A stretch of 41,005 bases of DNA from Chitinophaga pinensis. Lineage in GTDB: Bacteria; Bacteroidota; Bacteroidia; Flavobacteriales_D; Crocinitomicaceae. Below, piece by piece: positions 1,923 to 6,267 of this stretch (its first letter is position 1; each line of letters opens with the position of its first letter). Location of the stretch: positions 1 through 41,005 of the forward strand of contig CAMDNE010000024.1 of assembly GCA_945902745.1 (NCBI GenBank). The letters run 5' to 3'. A model generated the notes under the pieces. It did no database searches. It was not told the origin of the DNA and saw only the letters and a list, made by a program, of their open reading frames with translations. The translations under genes were made by a program, and so were the position numbers.

Positions 1923-3146
1923 TTGATAAAAGTTCTATACATATCTTATGATGGCATGACAGATCCTTTAGGTCAGTCGCAAGTATTGCCCTATTTATCT
2001 GGTTTATCCAAGAAAGGGTATTCTTTTCACTTAATCAGTTTTGAAAAGGAAGAACGTTTTGAACAACATCGAGAACATATTCAAGCCATTTGTGATGCTG
2101 CGGGAATTAATTGGCATCCTTTAAGTTATACGAAAAAACCTCCTTTGCTTTCAACAATTTATGATGTGCAAAGAATGAAACGTTTAGCCCATAAACTTCA
2201 TAAAAAACACACATTTAAAATCACACATTGTCGCAGTTATATAGCTGCTTTGGTTGGTTTGGGAATGAAAAAGAAATATGGAACAAAATTCCTGTTTGAC
2301 ATGCGCGGTTTTTGGGCAAACGAACGTGTTGATGGTAAAATTTGGAATTTGAGTAATCCAATCTTTAAAAGGGTTTACGATTATTTCAAAAAGAAAGAAA
2401 TCCAATTTTTTAGAGAAGCAGATTATACAATTTCTTTAACGTATAACGGTAAAAAAGAGATTGAGAGTTGGAAAGAATTTGGTGAACAGACACCAAAAAT
2501 TGAAGTTATTCCTTGCTGCGTAGATTTAGAATTATTCAATCCGGAAAAAATTAGTGAATCTGATCGATCCAATTTACGGGAAACACTGCACATCGATCCT
2601 ACTGATTTCATTTTAGGATATGTTGGTTCAATTGGAACCTGGTATATGTTATCCGAAATGCTTGATTATTTCAAAATATTGAAAGCTACCAGACCCTCCG
2701 CAAAATTTTTATTTGTTACCGGAGAAAACCCATCTACAATAAATAATAAAGCGCAAGAAAAAGAAATAAAATTAGAAGATATCATCATTACTTCCTGCAG
2801 GCATAGCGATGTTCCATTGAATATTAGTCTATTTAATCATTCAATCTTCTTTATTCGACCAACCTATTCAAAGAAGGCTTCTTCTCCAACAAAGCAAGGA
2901 GAAATAATGGCAATGGGAATTCCGTTGATTTGTAATGCTGGAGTTGGGGATACTGATTTAGTTGTCGAAAAATACCATGCTGGACAAGTGCTGAAGGAGT
3001 TAACAGATGCTGCTTACCTTCAATCTTTTAAAAGTGAATTTAATTTTATAAAATCAAAAACAATCGAAGGAGCTCAAGAATTTTATAGTTTGGAGGAAGG
3101 TGTAAGGAGATATTTGAGCGTTTATGAGAAATTAGTTAAAAAATAA
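1923..3146 (+). CDS. Glycosyltransferase, GT-B fold (GT4-like)
   Basis: A 407-residue protein beginning IKVLYISYDGMTDPLGQSQ, a typical N-terminal strand and glycine loop of GT4-type sugar transferases. The C-terminal half carries PTYSKKASSPTKQGEIMAMG followed by IPLICNAGVGD, the donor-nucleotide binding region of the GT-B fold. It probably adds a sugar to a lipid-linked surface glycan in the cytoplasm. The start is TTG: an in-frame stop lies three codons upstream and the conserved N-terminus leaves no room for a later start. A TATTTTTG box at 1908-1915 would put the transcript start almost on the TTG, but in such AT-rich DNA it may be chance. Donor and acceptor cannot be read from sequence. 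Confidence 0.85.
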   Translation: MIKVLYISYDGMTDPLGQSQVLPYLSGLSKKGYSFHLISFEKEERFEQHREHIQAICDAAGINWHPLSYTKKPPLLSTIYDVQRMKRLAHKLHKKHTFKITHCRSYIAALVGLGMKKKYGTKFLFDMRGFWANERVDGKIWNLSNPIFKRVYDYFKKKEIQFFREADYTISLTYNGKKEIESWKEFGEQTPKIEVIPCCVDLELFNPEKISESDRSNLRETLHIDPTDFILGYVGSIGTWYMLSEMLDYFKILKATRPSAKFLFVTGENPSTINNKAQEKEIKLEDIIITSCRHSDVPLNISLFNHSIFFIRPTYSKKASSPTKQGEIMAMGIPLICNAGVGDTDLVVEKYHAGQVLKELTDAAYLQSFKSEFNFIKSKTIEGAQEFYSLEEGVRRYLSVYEKLVKK

Positions 3147-3147
3147 A

Positions 3148-3168
3148 GGCCACAGATGCACAGATTTT
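3148..3168. repeat. Left arm of perfect 21-bp inverted repeat
   Basis: This arm starts one base after the stop codon of the preceding glycosyltransferase (3144-3146). Its reverse complement is found without mismatch at 3627-3647. The core reads CCACAGATGCACAGATTTT. Together the arms enclose only the GxxExxY gene. Confidence 0.93.
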
Positions 3169-3171
3169 AAC

Positions 3172-3195
3172 TATTAAATAGAAAACTATTTAATA
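3172..3195. terminator. AT-rich perfect hairpin after left arm
   Basis: TATTAAATAG and CTATTTAATA form a 10-bp stem with an AAAA loop. It lies 25 bases after the glycosyltransferase stop and 40 bases before the GxxExxY start. It could end the upstream transcript or be a structural part of the cassette. No long T-run follows, so a terminator role is uncertain. Confidence 0.4.
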
Positions 3196-3235
3196 TTATT
3201 ATGTATCTTCAAGAAGCTATCATTTAAAAATTATT

Positions 3236-3613
3236 ATGCTTATTGAATATCTGAATAAAGATCTTACATACGAAATCATTGGGAAATGTTTTGAAGTTCA
3301 TAATAATTTAGGTCCAGGTTTTCTAGAAATTGTATACAAAGATGCTTTGCAATATGAATTTTCGGAATCAAATATTCCTTTTGAAAGAGAAGTTCAGTAT
3401 AATGTAACCTATAAAGATATTGTCCTACCCCATCAGTTTTATGCTGATTTTGTAGTTTTCAATTCAATTATATTAGAAGTTAAAGCAATTTCCACAATAA
3501 CAGATGAATCAATTGCTCAAACAATCAATTATCTCAAAGTTTCAGAAAATAGAATTGGATTAATCGTAAACTTTGGAGAAAAAAGCCTGAAAACAAAACG
3601 ATTAATTTATTAA
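3236..3613 (+). CDS. GxxExxY family protein, PD-(D/E)XK nuclease-like (copy 1)
   Basis: A 125-residue protein with the hallmark motif GFLEIVY (Gly28, Glu31, Tyr34). It then has Asp71 and E81-V-K83, the D...ExK arrangement of the PD-(D/E)XK nuclease superfamily. Conserved Gln95 and Tyr99 lie in the following helix. The family is known as GxxExxY (I recall TIGR04256 / PDDEXK_3), and no function is established to my knowledge. All presumed catalytic residues are present, so it is probably not a decayed copy. It shares the fold and motif order with the gene at 5147-5527, but the proteins are divergent. It sits alone inside a perfect 21-bp inverted repeat, with no partner gene. The start is ATG at 3236. 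Confidence 0.87.
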   Translation: MLIEYLNKDLTYEIIGKCFEVHNNLGPGFLEIVYKDALQYEFSESNIPFEREVQYNVTYKDIVLPHQFYADFVVFNSIILEVKAISTITDESIAQTINYLKVSENRIGLIVNFGEKSLKTKRLIY

Positions 3614-3626
3614 AAAACAGAAAATA

Positions 3627-3647
3627 AAAATCTGTGCATCTGTGGCC
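3627..3647. repeat. Right arm of perfect 21-bp inverted repeat
   Basis: Exact reverse complement of 3148-3168. It contains two CTGTG words at 3632 and 3640, eight bases apart, followed by GGCC and an A-rich tail reading AAAACTAA. It lies 14 bases after the GxxExxY stop. Confidence 0.93.
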
Positions 3648-3771
3648 AAAACTAAATTTCAACTTATACTTCGGTGGGATTTTTTTGTTAAATCGATAAA
3701 TCTTAAAGTTTTAGGTAATAGAAATAAATGCCGTAATAATCAAAAACATAAAATGCTTAACTTCGCTTTCA

Positions 3772-4839
3772 ATGTCTAAAACAATATTCTTTCTAGTTCC
3801 TTATCCAAAAGGTGAAGCGCCGTCTCAACGTTTTCGTTTTGAACAATATATACCCTTTCTAGAAGAAAAAGGATATACCATCGAAATTCATTCTTTTTAC
3901 ACCTATAAAACGTGGCAATCATTATACAACGGAAGTACTTTAACAAAAATGTGGGGAGTTGTTTCTAGTTTCTTCAGACGTTTTAGCTTGTTATTTAAAC
4001 TGCATAAAGCTGATCAGCTTTTCATTCATAGAGAAGTCGCACATGTTGGACCTCCTATTTTTGAATGGATTATTGCGAAAATTCTACGCAAAAAATATAT
4101 TTATGATTTTGATGATGCAATATGGCTTCCTAATTACAGCGAATCAAATGCTCGTTTTCATCGCCTAAAAGCATATTGGAAAGTGAATTATTGCATGAAA
4201 TGGGCATCTAAAATTTCAGCTGGAAATGATTATTTGGCCAATTATGCAAAGAATTATAATTCAAATGTTCAAATTATTCCAACTACTATTGACACCGAGT
4301 TTCATCATTCGATTACTTGCAATCATGAACAAAGTAAAACTGTCATTGGGTGGACTGGCACACACACGACAATGCATTATTTGAATGAATTAATTCCTGT
4401 TTTAAAAGAATTGGAACAAACGTATGATTTTACTTTCTTAGTTATTTCCAATGAGAAACCAACATTTGAATTGCGCTCATTACAGTTCAAAAAATGGCAA
4501 AAAGAAACTGAAATAGTGGATTTGGCAAAAATGAATATTGGTGTGATGCCGTTACAAAAAGATATTTGGTCCGAGGGGAAATGTGGTTTTAAAGGGTTAC
4601 AATATATGGCGCTCGAAATTCCAACTATTATGTCTCCAGTGGGTGTAAATACCGCAATTGTTCAAGATGGGATCAATGGGTTTATTGCGAGCTCACTTGA
4701 GGAATGGAAAGAAAAATTAATACTTCTTCTAACGGACAAAGAATTAAGAAAAAACCTTGGCAAAGCAGGAAGAAAAACGGTTGAGGAACGATATTCAGTT
4801 AAGGCGAATCAAGAAAAATATTTGGAACTTTTTAATTAA
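3772..4839 (+). CDS. Glycosyltransferase family protein (GT4-like)
   Basis: A 355-residue protein beginning KTIFFLVPYPKGEAPSQRFR, typical of a Bacteroidota glycosyltransferase group in polysaccharide clusters. The middle holds IYDFDDAIWLP (acceptor side). The second Rossmann half starts at VIGWTGTHTT and has the donor-binding segment GKCGFKGLQYMALEIPTI with a Glu near the end. A signal peptide or membrane segment is absent, so it is cytoplasmic or peripheral. It is separated from the upstream transferase by the GxxExxY cassette, so the two were probably neighbours before insertion. A near-consensus -7 box TAACTTCG at 3758-3765 would give a nearly leaderless transcript. The sugar specificity is unknown. 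Confidence 0.83.
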   Translation: MSKTIFFLVPYPKGEAPSQRFRFEQYIPFLEEKGYTIEIHSFYTYKTWQSLYNGSTLTKMWGVVSSFFRRFSLLFKLHKADQLFIHREVAHVGPPIFEWIIAKILRKKYIYDFDDAIWLPNYSESNARFHRLKAYWKVNYCMKWASKISAGNDYLANYAKNYNSNVQIIPTTIDTEFHHSITCNHEQSKTVIGWTGTHTTMHYLNELIPVLKELEQTYDFTFLVISNEKPTFELRSLQFKKWQKETEIVDLAKMNIGVMPLQKDIWSEGKCGFKGLQYMALEIPTIMSPVGVNTAIVQDGINGFIASSLEEWKEKLILLLTDKELRKNLGKAGRKTVEERYSVKANQEKYLELFN

Positions 4840-4847
4840 ATTTACTT

Positions 4848-4873
4848 CCCGCGGAAAAGGCAGAAAACCGCAG
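4848..4873. repeat. Left outer arm of imperfect 26-bp inverted repeat
   Basis: This segment, reverse-complemented, matches 5590-5615 at 20 of 26 positions by my alignment. Both carry the CTGCG...GCGGG theme. It begins nine bases after the glycosyltransferase stop. It is the outermost repeat on the left of the second GxxExxY gene. Confidence 0.65.
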
Positions 4874-4883
4874 AAACTAAAAA

Positions 4884-5026
4884 GTCAGTATATTCAATGA
4901 ACATCTGCGTATTCTGCGGGAAAACTAACTACTAAAATTTAATTACAACAGTCAATATATTCAATCAACATCTGCGTATTTCAACGTATTCTGCGGGAAA
5001 ACTAACTGCTAAAATTTAATTACAAC
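4884..5026. repeat. Two tandem 66/76-bp direct repeats with CTGCG core
   Basis: Unit 1 (4884-4949) and unit 2 (4951-5026) both read GTCARTATATTCAATSAAC, then ATCTGCGTATT...CTGCGGGAAAACTAACT and end AAAATTTAATTACAAC. They differ at three single bases and by a 10-bp insertion in the core of unit 2, itself a partial duplication of the core. A weaker related stretch follows at about 5034-5060. These repeats fill most of the 307-base gap at 4840-5146; no gene is seen there. Confidence 0.9.
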
Positions 5027-5146
5027 TTCAAAAGCTCTGTGTATTTCTGAGTTTTCTCTCTGATTAACTTTTTTGAATTTTCACTTGTTTTAACTCTTCT
5101 TTTCATGTAACTTCCGTAAACTAACTAAAATATTCTTCAAATAATT

Positions 5147-5527
5147 ATGACTGAAAATGAAATTTCCTACAAAATTCGTGGGGCAATTTACAATGTGTAT
5201 GCTGCACTTGGGCCAGGCCTATTAGAATCAGCTTATGAGGCAACATTAATCTATGAACTCCAAGAAAAAGGTTTAAATGTAAAAGCTCAAGTTCCTCTTC
5301 CAATAATTTACAATGAGGTAAAACTTGAAGTTGGGTATCGGATAGATTTACTTGTCAATGAAAAAGTTATAATTGAAATTAAATCTGTTGAAAATTTAAA
5401 TCCTGTTCATCATAAACAAGTATTAACTTATTTAAAATTATCTGGTATCAAACTCGGAATTCTTGTAAATTTCAACACAGATAACATTTTTGACGGAATG
5501 TTCAGAAAAGTAAATAATCTTAAATGA
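5147..5527 (+). CDS. GxxExxY family protein, PD-(D/E)XK nuclease-like (copy 2)
   Basis: A 126-residue protein with GLLESAY (Gly24, Glu27, Tyr30), Asp67 in YRIDLLV and E77-I-K79 in VIIEIKSVE, then HHKQVLTYLKL with Gln91. This is the full PD-(D/E)XK-type set in the order seen in the first copy. Identity to the first copy is limited, so this is not a recent duplication. Members are small, and a lone nuclease core with no DNA-binding domain is normal for the family. No function is established that I know of. The gene stands alone between glycosyltransferase and rdgB, surrounded on both sides by CTGCG-type repeats. The start is ATG, about 120 bases after the last direct repeat. Confidence 0.88.
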   Translation: MTENEISYKIRGAIYNVYAALGPGLLESAYEATLIYELQEKGLNVKAQVPLPIIYNEVKLEVGYRIDLLVNEKVIIEIKSVENLNPVHHKQVLTYLKLSGIKLGILVNFNTDNIFDGMFRKVNNLK

Positions 5528-5589
5528 TCCAAAATATCTGCGTATTTCCATGGGAAAGTAATGGACAAATGATAATAACAACAAAATCT

Positions 5590-5615
5590 CTGCGCATTTC
5601 AGCGATTTCAGCGGG
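5590..5615. repeat. Right outer arm of imperfect 26-bp inverted repeat
   Basis: Three related words (CTGCGCATTT, CAGCGATTT, CAGCGGG) make up this arm, which pairs with 4848-4873. Another copy of the theme, ATCTGCGTATTTC, is at 5536-5548 just after the GxxExxY stop. Confidence 0.65.
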
Positions 5616-5663
5616 AAAAACTCTTAACTTAAAAGATTAATCTTTCTTATTCAAAATAGTCAA

Positions 5664-5671
5664 TAACTTTG
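5664..5671 (+). promoter_or_regulatory. -7 box TAACTTTG upstream of rdgB
   Basis: A perfect match to the Bacteroidota -7 consensus TAnnTTTG, 17 bases before the rdgB ATG. No TTG is seen at the usual -33 distance. A 14-bp palindrome AAAGATTAATCTTT (5632-5645) lies at about -33. Confidence 0.55.
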
Positions 5672-5688
5672 TCCAAAAAGCTTCTCTC

Positions 5689-6267
5689 ATGAAACTAATT
5701 TTCGCCACACATAATCACAATAAAGCAAAAGAAATCCAATCTCTTGTGCCCGTAGGAATTCAAGTACTAACGTTAGACGATATCGAATGTTTTGATGAAA
5801 TACCAGAGACTTCCTCAACTTTGGAAGGAAATGCCAATCAAAAGATGCAGTTCATTATTGATCATTATAATGTGAATTGTTTTGCAGATGATACAGGCTT
5901 GGAGATTGAAGCGCTAAATGGCGAACCAGGAGTTTATTCTGCACGTTATGCAGGTGAAATGAAAGATCCAAATCAAAATATGGAACTTGCACTTTCCAAA
6001 CTGAATGGAGTTGAAGATCGATCTGCGCGTTTTCGAACCGTAATAGCATTATTTTGGCAAGGGGGAAAATATCAGTTTGAAGGAATTGTAAATGGTAAAA
6101 TAACTCTTTCAAAATCTGGAAAAGATGGTTTCGGCTACGACCCAATTTTTGAACCTGAGAATTGTGGTAAAACCTTCGCTGAAATGAATTTATCAGAAAA
6201 AAATCTAGTAAGTCACCGAGCACGGGCATTTGCCAAAATGATTGAATTTTTAAACCAACAGAAGTAA
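5689..6267 (+). CDS. rdgB: XTP/dITP diphosphatase (RdgB/HAM1 family)
   Basis: A 192-residue cytoplasmic enzyme that hydrolyses non-canonical purine NTPs (ITP, dITP, XTP) to monophosphate and pyrophosphate, keeping them out of DNA and RNA. The N-terminal substrate loop reads IFATHNHNKAKEI (T/SxNxxK motif). FADDTGLEIEALNGEPGVYSARYAG carries the metal-binding acidic residues, and GKDGFGYDPIFEP with a later SHRARAF completes the fingerprint. Length and start fit the family. It is monocistronic here, with its own -7 box, and the next gene has a separate promoter. Confidence 0.96.
   Translation: MKLIFATHNHNKAKEIQSLVPVGIQVLTLDDIECFDEIPETSSTLEGNANQKMQFIIDHYNVNCFADDTGLEIEALNGEPGVYSARYAGEMKDPNQNMELALSKLNGVEDRSARFRTVIALFWQGGKYQFEGIVNGKITLSKSGKDGFGYDPIFEPENCGKTFAEMNLSEKNLVSHRARAFAKMIEFLNQQK

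Follow-up and report, generated by a model that had tools for sequence, protein, structure and literature searches.

GxxExxY nuclease genes edged by their own tandem word arrays: a candidate minimal mobile element

Two GxxExxY genes and their flanking repeats

The window analysed here is a stretch of 41,005 nucleotides, contig CAMDNE010000024.1 (C24 below) of a 3.46-Mb host genome deposited under the name Chitinophaga pinensis (GCA_945902745.1; G000 below). It carries two full-length GxxExxY genes (TIGR04256/PF13366, PD-(D/E)XK nuclease type) on the forward strand, at positions 3236-3613 and 5147-5527, each set among short repeats made of a tandemly repeated word. Across the gene family the spelling of this word co-varies with the protein. 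This suggests that the genes belong to a minimal mobile element of a new kind, and that the likely target of each nuclease could be read from its word.

Element 1 (3148-3647, forward strand, 500 bp) consists of the first gene enclosed by a perfect inverted repeat. Its left arm (GGCCACAGATGCACAGATTTT, 3148-3168) lies on the reverse strand and reads outward as two copies of the word ATCTGTG followed by GGCC, while the right arm (AAAATCTGTGCATCTGTGGCC, 3627-3647) lies on the forward strand; together they form a 21-nt inverted repeat with 100% complementarity. Element 2, taken together with its additional array copies, occupies 4846-5688 of the forward strand, the ends being approximate, and is an insertion between a glycosyltransferase 2 gene and a Ham1/rdgB gene. 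Its repeats are looser, partly tandem CTGCG copies: a left array on the reverse strand (CCCGCGGAAAAGGCAGAAAACCGCAGAAAC, 4848-4877, placed by eye), two forward array copies upstream of the gene (4903-4925 and 4971-5001), a degenerate forward copy downstream of it (ATCTGCGTATTTCCATGGGAAAG, 5537-5560) and a right CTGCG/CAGCG array, also forward (5589-5619). The copies at 4971-5001 and 5589-5619 belong to repeat family D1 and the degenerate copy to repeat family D2. Because forward copies flank gene 2 on both sides, the repeats of element 2 form no clean inverted pair.

The proteins have 125 (gene 1) and 126 (gene 2) amino acids (aa). They score 141.2 bits (E 1.7e-41) and 144.4 bits (E 1.7e-42), respectively, against TIGR04256 with its cut-off of 35, and 126.4 bits (E 9e-37) and 141.3 bits (E 2.2e-41) against PF13366 (PDDEXK_3; cut-off 22), the sole Pfam family matched by the window proteins. 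Residues G28, E31, Y34, D71, E81 and K83 (gene 1 numbering) are invariant across a 57-protein alignment that includes both window genes. The first-pass annotation, made from the letters of the window, had named two GxxExxY proteins with complete D...ExK residues; the scores, far over both cut-offs, and the invariance of D71, E81 and K83 bear this out. An AlphaFold model of gene 1 built on a 57-row alignment had a predicted local distance difference test (pLDDT) score of 94.4 and a predicted template modelling (pTM) score of 0.87. The top matches among solved folds were chains of the Cas4 protein SSO0001 (4ic1; best E 6.9e-5, TMq 0.55), with lambda-exonuclease, AddAB, RecE and Holliday-resolvase types further down at E above 0.001. 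A sequence search of solved structures returned three matches at E 0.5-0.7 only, and so no solved sequence relative. Judged by the model, the GxxExxY protein is predicted to be a small PD-(D/E)XK nuclease with a Cas4/RecB-like fold.

Other identities for the locus were rejected. Rfam recognised no known RNA in positions 2900-6000 of the window (E up to 1) or in 12 further loci (gathering scores). The reading as a defence gene was dropped because PADLOC results were limited to two weak Cas4 matches for gene 2 (Cas4b E 0.0053), with none for gene 1. A phage origin was set aside as well, with the gene-2 query finding nothing in 50,697 phages and PHROGs matching only at E 0.001-0.01.

Word arrays across the gene family and the host genome

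Relatives of gene 1 were taken as the best 80 of 270 loci that a search of 84,980 species genomes yielded; going by record titles they come from Bacteroidota, Chlorobiota/Ignavibacteria, Calditrichota, Acidobacteria and a planctomycete. The motif ATNNGYGNATNNGYGG lies within 600 bp of the gene in 74 of these 80 (upstream in 71, downstream in 70, on both sides in 67). Its density was 348 sites in 91 kb of near DNA (3.82 per kb) versus 27 sites in 262 kb of far DNA (0.10 per kb), and the control pattern gave no site in either. A wider set of 184 distinct genes joined the gene-1 relatives to loci from a phylum-wide draw of 118 genomes, of which 59 contain the family. Depending on flank length, 173 near and 161 far stretches from this set entered a count of tandem.TNNGYG words, which were found within 250 bp of 132/173 genes and in 2/161 distant control stretches. 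Motif-free enrichment of 7-mers within 200 bp of the genes ranked ATTCGTG, TTCGTGG, CTCTGTG, ATCTGTG, TCTGTGG, ATTAGTG, CTTTGCG, CTTTGTG and CTCTGCG at the top, along with overlapping and complementary words; ATTCGTG made up 166 of 67,878 near 7-mers and 10 of 165,867 far ones. The repeats are thus not equally common beside other DNA, where equal frequency would have been the outcome that the first-pass annotation had named as speaking against a link. The reversed-pattern, far-DNA and motif-free controls rule out chance repeats.

The arrays consist of a word of about 7 bp repeated every 8-10 bp (A-words step by 8 bp in 294 of 391 steps, C-words mostly by 8-10) and are often inverted about the gene or present as one hairpin unit per side. 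An inverted-repeat score of at least 14 across the gene was reached by 48 of 79 loci, and by 26 of 79 combinations of flanks taken from different loci, which score high because the loci share words. This scoring left out L049 and includes L067, whose score came from masked N; a later locus count left out L137. Among the 41 genes lacking a.TNNGYG word, many show other tandem words by eye (AATCCTG, AATTCTG, ATCGGTG, CTATGTTT, AATCAT), and some, for example L155 and L213, show no clear array. The A-rich tail AAAACTAA that the first-pass annotation regarded as shared by the repeats proved not to be general: the outermost word is most often followed by GTTA in the case of C-words and by GCAA and GCTA in the case of A-words.

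Eight genes from plasmid records, belonging to five phyla (Gemmatimonadota, Pseudomonadota, Fusobacteriota, Spirochaetota and Bacteroidota), all have words or arrays at both ends when inspected by eye. Those of Sphingomonas, Bacteroides finegoldii, Bernardetia and Treponema (the last with one word per side) are inverted about the gene, and the Gemmatirosa locus has one hairpin unit per side. The Sphingomonas copy sits between fabD and fabG. GxxExxY genes often lie in array-edged, insertable DNA across several bacterial phyla.

Word type tracks the protein tree and not the genome. A FastTree phylogeny was built from the 172 of the 184 proteins with a nearly full-length domain, 133 of which carry a.TNNGYG label; the 39 with other or no words stand outside the tree test. 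The first letter of the word changes 7 times on this tree versus a shuffled mean of 38.6 (minimum 33 in 200 shuffles), the four-letter word 51 times versus 78.1 (minimum 71), and letters 3-4 within first-letter groups 46 times versus 59.8 (minimum 53). Between genomes, pairs with at least 60% protein identity have the exact same word in 1249 of 2878 cases (43%) and the same first letter in 99%, and pairs with 30-45% identity in 107 of 4499 (2%) and 20%, respectively. Pairs of the latter identity within one genome share the exact word in 1 of 23 cases (4%) and the first letter in 26%. This rules out the words as a property of the host genome. The proposal of the first-pass annotation that gene and repeat seem to have diverged together is thereby supported, repeat type correlating with protein clade except for the finer letters within the C-word clade.

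Finer examples come from genus g1, where.TNNGYG words stand at 19 of 25 further loci. Five of six g1 relatives of the C9 gene have CTATGTG/TTATGTG, the exception, at 54% identity, being CTCTGTG in the sixth. TTCTGCG is the word of L320 and L321, which are closely related to gene 2, and CTTTGCG that of the more distant L304; among gene-1 relatives in g1, L322 has ATCTGTG, while L323, L324 and L318 have ATTCGTG/ATTAGTG/CTTCGTG. In an exploratory comparison, uncorrected for shared ancestry, residue 11 was Thr in 14 of 17 ATCT and 4 of 6 ATCC proteins and Ser in 43 of 49 ATTC proteins.

The host genome contains four GxxExxY genes with four distinct word families, the remaining two genes (L001 and L003) being flanked by tandem CTTTGYG/CTTAGTG and CTATGTG words, respectively. 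The two repeat families of the first-pass annotation are both present and make up half of this set. The pattern CTGYGN{2,6}CTGYGG occurs at 33+33 sites on the two strands of G000 versus 1+0 for the reversed control pattern. Of 31 close neighbours (copies at most 600 bp apart), 20 have the order -+, five --, three +- and three ++. The starts of -+ pairs are 25-129 bp apart, except for the 482-bp pair that encloses gene 1, and such inverted word pairs could form hairpins. This dispersal was detailed in one genome and mainly for one word family. One gene-less pair of G000 is absent from the sisters G198 and G200, where the sequence lying between conserved flanks has diverged too far to define an exact junction, and gene-less locus L020 has a 29-bp match to element 1 (E 0.001). 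No target-site duplication was seen by eye around nine gene-less pairs and element 1. Separately, G000:C7:96865-97201 holds three copies of CTGCGTTTTCTGCGG spaced exactly 161 bp, of the gene-2 word type, on a contig where no GxxExxY gene was found.

Occupied and empty sites

Both window genes have empty-site alleles. With flanking gene families assigned by Pfam, the glycosyltransferase genes on either side of element 1 are separated by 625 bp in the window and by only 11 bp in the sister genome G200 (L256). The distance from glycosyltransferase 2 to Ham1/rdgB, the site of element 2, is 849 bp in the window and 10 bp in L256. The rdgB site is also empty, its genes abutting, in L263-L267, L279 and L282; it is occupied by gene 2 in L255, by a related gene in L259 and L268, and by a gene-less CTTTGTG/CTTAGTG unit, identified by eye, in L257.

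Exact junctions were obtained in genus g8, between genes that Pfam assigns to an M24 metallopeptidase (map-like) and a methyltransferase, where a spanning query on 61 genomes allowed 41 junctions to be read. Twenty of these hold an intact GxxExxY insertion, 10 from a CT-word clade and 10 from an AT-word clade, each with its own words. The inserts measure 512-569 bp for the CT-word clade (nine measured) and 507-587 bp for the AT-word clade (six measured), so that elements are 0.5-0.6 kb long where their ends are exact. Seven junctions have zero extra bases, four have 18-26 bp, two have gene fragments only and two have gene-less CTCTGTG units (L338 and L339; 116 and 90 bp). The rest comprise one junction with about 69 bp and no words, one unrelated hairpin and four other inserts. 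That two clades reuse the exact same position fits selection, in that only there do both neighbouring genes survive.

No tandem words were found within 150 bp at any of the seven exact empty map junctions or at either window site of L256; at the rdgB site, the empties L266 and L267 show a two-word match. Since exact empties lack tandem words, the arrays arrive with the insertion, which rules out a gene invading pre-existing repeats. Empty-site alleles, sought as the first-pass annotation had proposed, thus exist for both window genes and, with exact junctions, at the map junction. In the same gap, L233 (G159) contains an unrelated palindrome, ACCTACAAGGTTTT...AAAACCTTGCAGG, in a 146-bp insert. 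The map-junction inserts without a GxxExxY match are those of L330, L333 and L335 (G149, G129 and G177) and L337 (G174), three of about 0.8 kb and one of 1.9 kb, and the first three named have no tandem words.

Elsewhere, L216 of another genus has a further GxxExxY gene adjoining the same kind of gene pair as the map junction, and in L131 the gene lies between NuoF-like and NuoG/molybdopterin-oxidoreductase-like genes. In 23 locus pairs the gene DNA is at least 80% identical (80-95%) and the flanks are unrelated, some of the bins being labelled as different phyla. These pairs argue for horizontal spread, with bin error as a possible cause as well. Gene fragments and stop-bearing GxxExxY copies also occur and represent decaying remnants.

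The GxxExxY gene of L104 matches those of L068, L087, L108, L044 and L081, and that of L068 matches L077, at 80-82% DNA identity, while the flanks are unrelated. The bins concerned bear the labels Calditrichota, Melioribacteraceae, Chlorobiota, Bacteroidetes and planctomycete, so either recent transfer or binning error is the cause. The genes of L310 (G192) and L312 (G196) are 94.7% identical with similar upstream DNA, and the downstream DNA diverges right past the stop codon.

Interpretation and comparison with known systems

We think it somewhat probable that the GxxExxY gene is the sole gene of a minimal mobile element edged by cognate word arrays. How such an element moves we infer from the arrangement of its parts, and this applies to the binding and cutting of the word, to movement caused by the nuclease, to the strand path and to host repair. 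The nuclease would recognise its own word arrays, probably as the single-strand hairpin or cruciform formed by paired inverted arrays, and would cut at these arrays or close by. The DNA so excised or copied would then be inserted by the replication or repair machinery of the host, and the insertions that survive would be those in gaps between genes. Any stretch lying between two cognate inverted arrays could in this way be moved in trans, giving rise to gene-less pairs. A broader proposal, which we make tentatively though as a serious possibility, is that these elements form a widespread, undescribed class in which a lone 125-aa Cas4/RecB-like nuclease is responsible for mobilisation and recognises a tandem word that it re-specifies as it evolves, with gene-less populations resembling REPINs (hairpin-forming doublets of repetitive extragenic palindromic, or REP, sequences) moved in trans.

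A number of observations weigh against the mobile-element reading. Most repeat copies in G000 have no adjoining GxxExxY gene; the family-1 repeats, within which the first-pass annotation saw gene 1 as the only gene, also occur away from it. Among seven gene-less interiors compared, the single matching pair is a tandem duplicate, and the gene-less pairs otherwise share their arms alone. Of 26 g1 genomes, six have the ATCTGTG pair motif, and a gene-1-type gene with ATCTGTG was found in two of those six; of the four with the motif and no detected cognate gene, one is 69% complete. By a reading of the tables, the motif excess over the control pattern is at least 15 in six genomes of the phylum draw; five of them have the family and one, G014, does not. 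A looser motif-free score of at least 5 separates less cleanly, with 120 of 161 near stretches versus 32 and 26 of 161 far ones. Array order is mixed: 81 of 143 worded genes are flanked on the two sides by outward words within 150 bp and 88 have inward words as well, some of the latter belonging to hairpin units on each side of the gene, and same-strand arrays were seen by eye in L286 (Fusobacteria plasmid), L290 (Prevotella) and L291 (Persicobacter). Within the C-word clade alone the finer letters carry no tree signal (18 changes versus 17.6 shuffled). The gene-2 query matched 8 of 72,556 plasmid records, a rare occurrence, and none of the phages. Neither a target-site duplication, looked for by eye at the map junction, nor an excision product was seen. 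Against autonomy in particular, no near-identical copies with unrelated flanks within a genome were present among the loci fetched, where the only near-identical copies were a tandem pair in G092. The two GxxExxY genes of this pair (L134; G092:C4, near 68683 and 69423) lie at a distance of about 0.74 kb, and CTCTGCG words both separate and surround them.

Four other explanations were considered. That a different transposase moves the arrays in trans, with GxxExxY as cargo or regulator, is unlikely, although we know of no transposase chemistry for the family and in 4 of 6 sister genomes gene-less pairs are maintained with no cognate gene detected; the words track the GxxExxY protein rather than the genome, and an insert of 0.5-0.6 kb leaves little room for anything else. 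Scarcely different in probability, and likewise unlikely, is a domesticated nuclease with a host repair or replication role, the repeats being its sites and movement a rare by-product. Such a role would agree with copies that differ within the fetched genomes (G092 apart), with the rarity on plasmids and absence from phages under the gene-2 query, and with gene orientation: among 149 genes with both neighbours called, those between co-directional neighbours are sense in 101 cases and antisense in 16. It sits poorly with the patchy occurrence in half of the phylum draw, the frequent empty sites, and the fragments and stop-bearing copies.

Spread in the manner of homing, in which the nuclease cuts an element-free site and recombination between arrays copies the gene in (gene conversion among existing word pairs), is a little less probable again. 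Small PD-(D/E)XK homing endonucleases exist, and they and the Rpn (PF12784) nucleases are likewise small, solitary PD-(D/E)XK enzymes linked to recombination or mobility. One homing endonuclease, I-Bth0305I, is a low-ranking match of the fold search (E 0.14), and the many gene-less pairs with unrelated interiors could serve as recipient sites. To our knowledge, however, neither group has cognate word arrays of the GxxExxY form. The word-free empties, seven of seven at the map junction plus both window sites of L256, indicate that the insertions at those sites were not templated by existing words, the two-word matches of L266 and L267 being the exception; a recognition site of another kind in the empty allele is possible. 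Least credible by far is that the arrays serve the gene as operators or terminators and have no part in mobility, since, for all that they could form stem-loops at both gene ends and the gene between co-directional neighbours is mostly in sense orientation, they come and go with the gene at junctions that are otherwise intact and also occur as dispersed gene-less pairs and as gene-less units at the same junction.

If the mobile-element reading is preferred, the nearest system in working principle appears to be REPIN/RAYT (RAYT, REP-associated tyrosine transposase). As with the gene-repeat arrangement and co-evolution described in PMC3116915 and PMC8266576, a nuclease gene is flanked by its own repeats, these are dispersed as inverted pairs, a genome can contain several gene/repeat families, and gene and repeat co-diverge. 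The comparison with REP/RAYT drawn in the first-pass annotation is therefore apt for the repeats, which flank the gene, disperse as inverted pairs and co-diverge with the enzyme, while the enzyme itself is unrelated. RAYTs are HUH Y1 enzymes, whereas the GxxExxY proteins are of the PD-(D/E)XK type and matched only PF13366/TIGR04256; lacking an HUH Y1 enzyme, the GxxExxY elements are not placed within REPIN/RAYT. REPs are palindromic, whereas the GxxExxY repeats are tandem arrays of a 7-bp word with a period of 8-10 bp. Finally, RAYTs are held to be incapable of self-mobilisation in PMC3116915, whereas the gene-bearing GxxExxY unit itself inserts and has exact empty sites.

Miniature inverted-repeat transposable elements (MITEs) and their parent insertion sequences share with the present elements the coexistence of gene-less inverted-repeat units and a gene-bearing unit with the same ends. 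They differ in that the presumed parent here has no DDE or HUH transposase and no target-site duplication was seen. Additionally, the arms of the gene-less units are the same but the interiors compared are unrelated and appear not to derive from the parent; gene-less CTCTGTG units do share the map junction with gene-bearing ones. Likeness to Cas4/RecB-like proteins rests on the nearest solved fold (4ic1), the weak gene-2 matches to Cas4 models and a QxxxY motif after D..ExK. Cas4 has four cysteines for an iron-sulphur cluster, whereas gene 1 has a single cysteine and hence no such cluster; moreover, its protein is only 125 aa long and no cas genes were seen beside the window genes.

We found no assigned role for TIGR04256. 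In the accessible text of the open-licence literature, outside which lie subscription papers and preprints, GxxExxY is named in passing only, and no bacterial work on such word repeats and no link of the family to dispersed repeats or REPIN/RAYT was found, in agreement with the statement of the first-pass annotation that it knew of no described GxxExxY-repeat link. A role as a minimal mobile element, if true, would explain TIGR04256 genes together with many short repeats of the CTCTGTG, CTTTGCG and ATTCGTG types. It would represent a second, independent solution of the REP/RAYT kind on an unrelated fold. It would also make the family a natural collection of small nucleases, possibly sequence-specific, each with its presumed target written alongside, so that nuclease/target pairs could be read directly from genome sequences.

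Apart from the lone genes, three species belonging to a single genus have a GxxExxY domain (G026:C9:91044-91385, G054:C1:72354-72692 and G038:C22:338277-338615) inside an open frame of 883 aa, possibly as part of a fusion protein.

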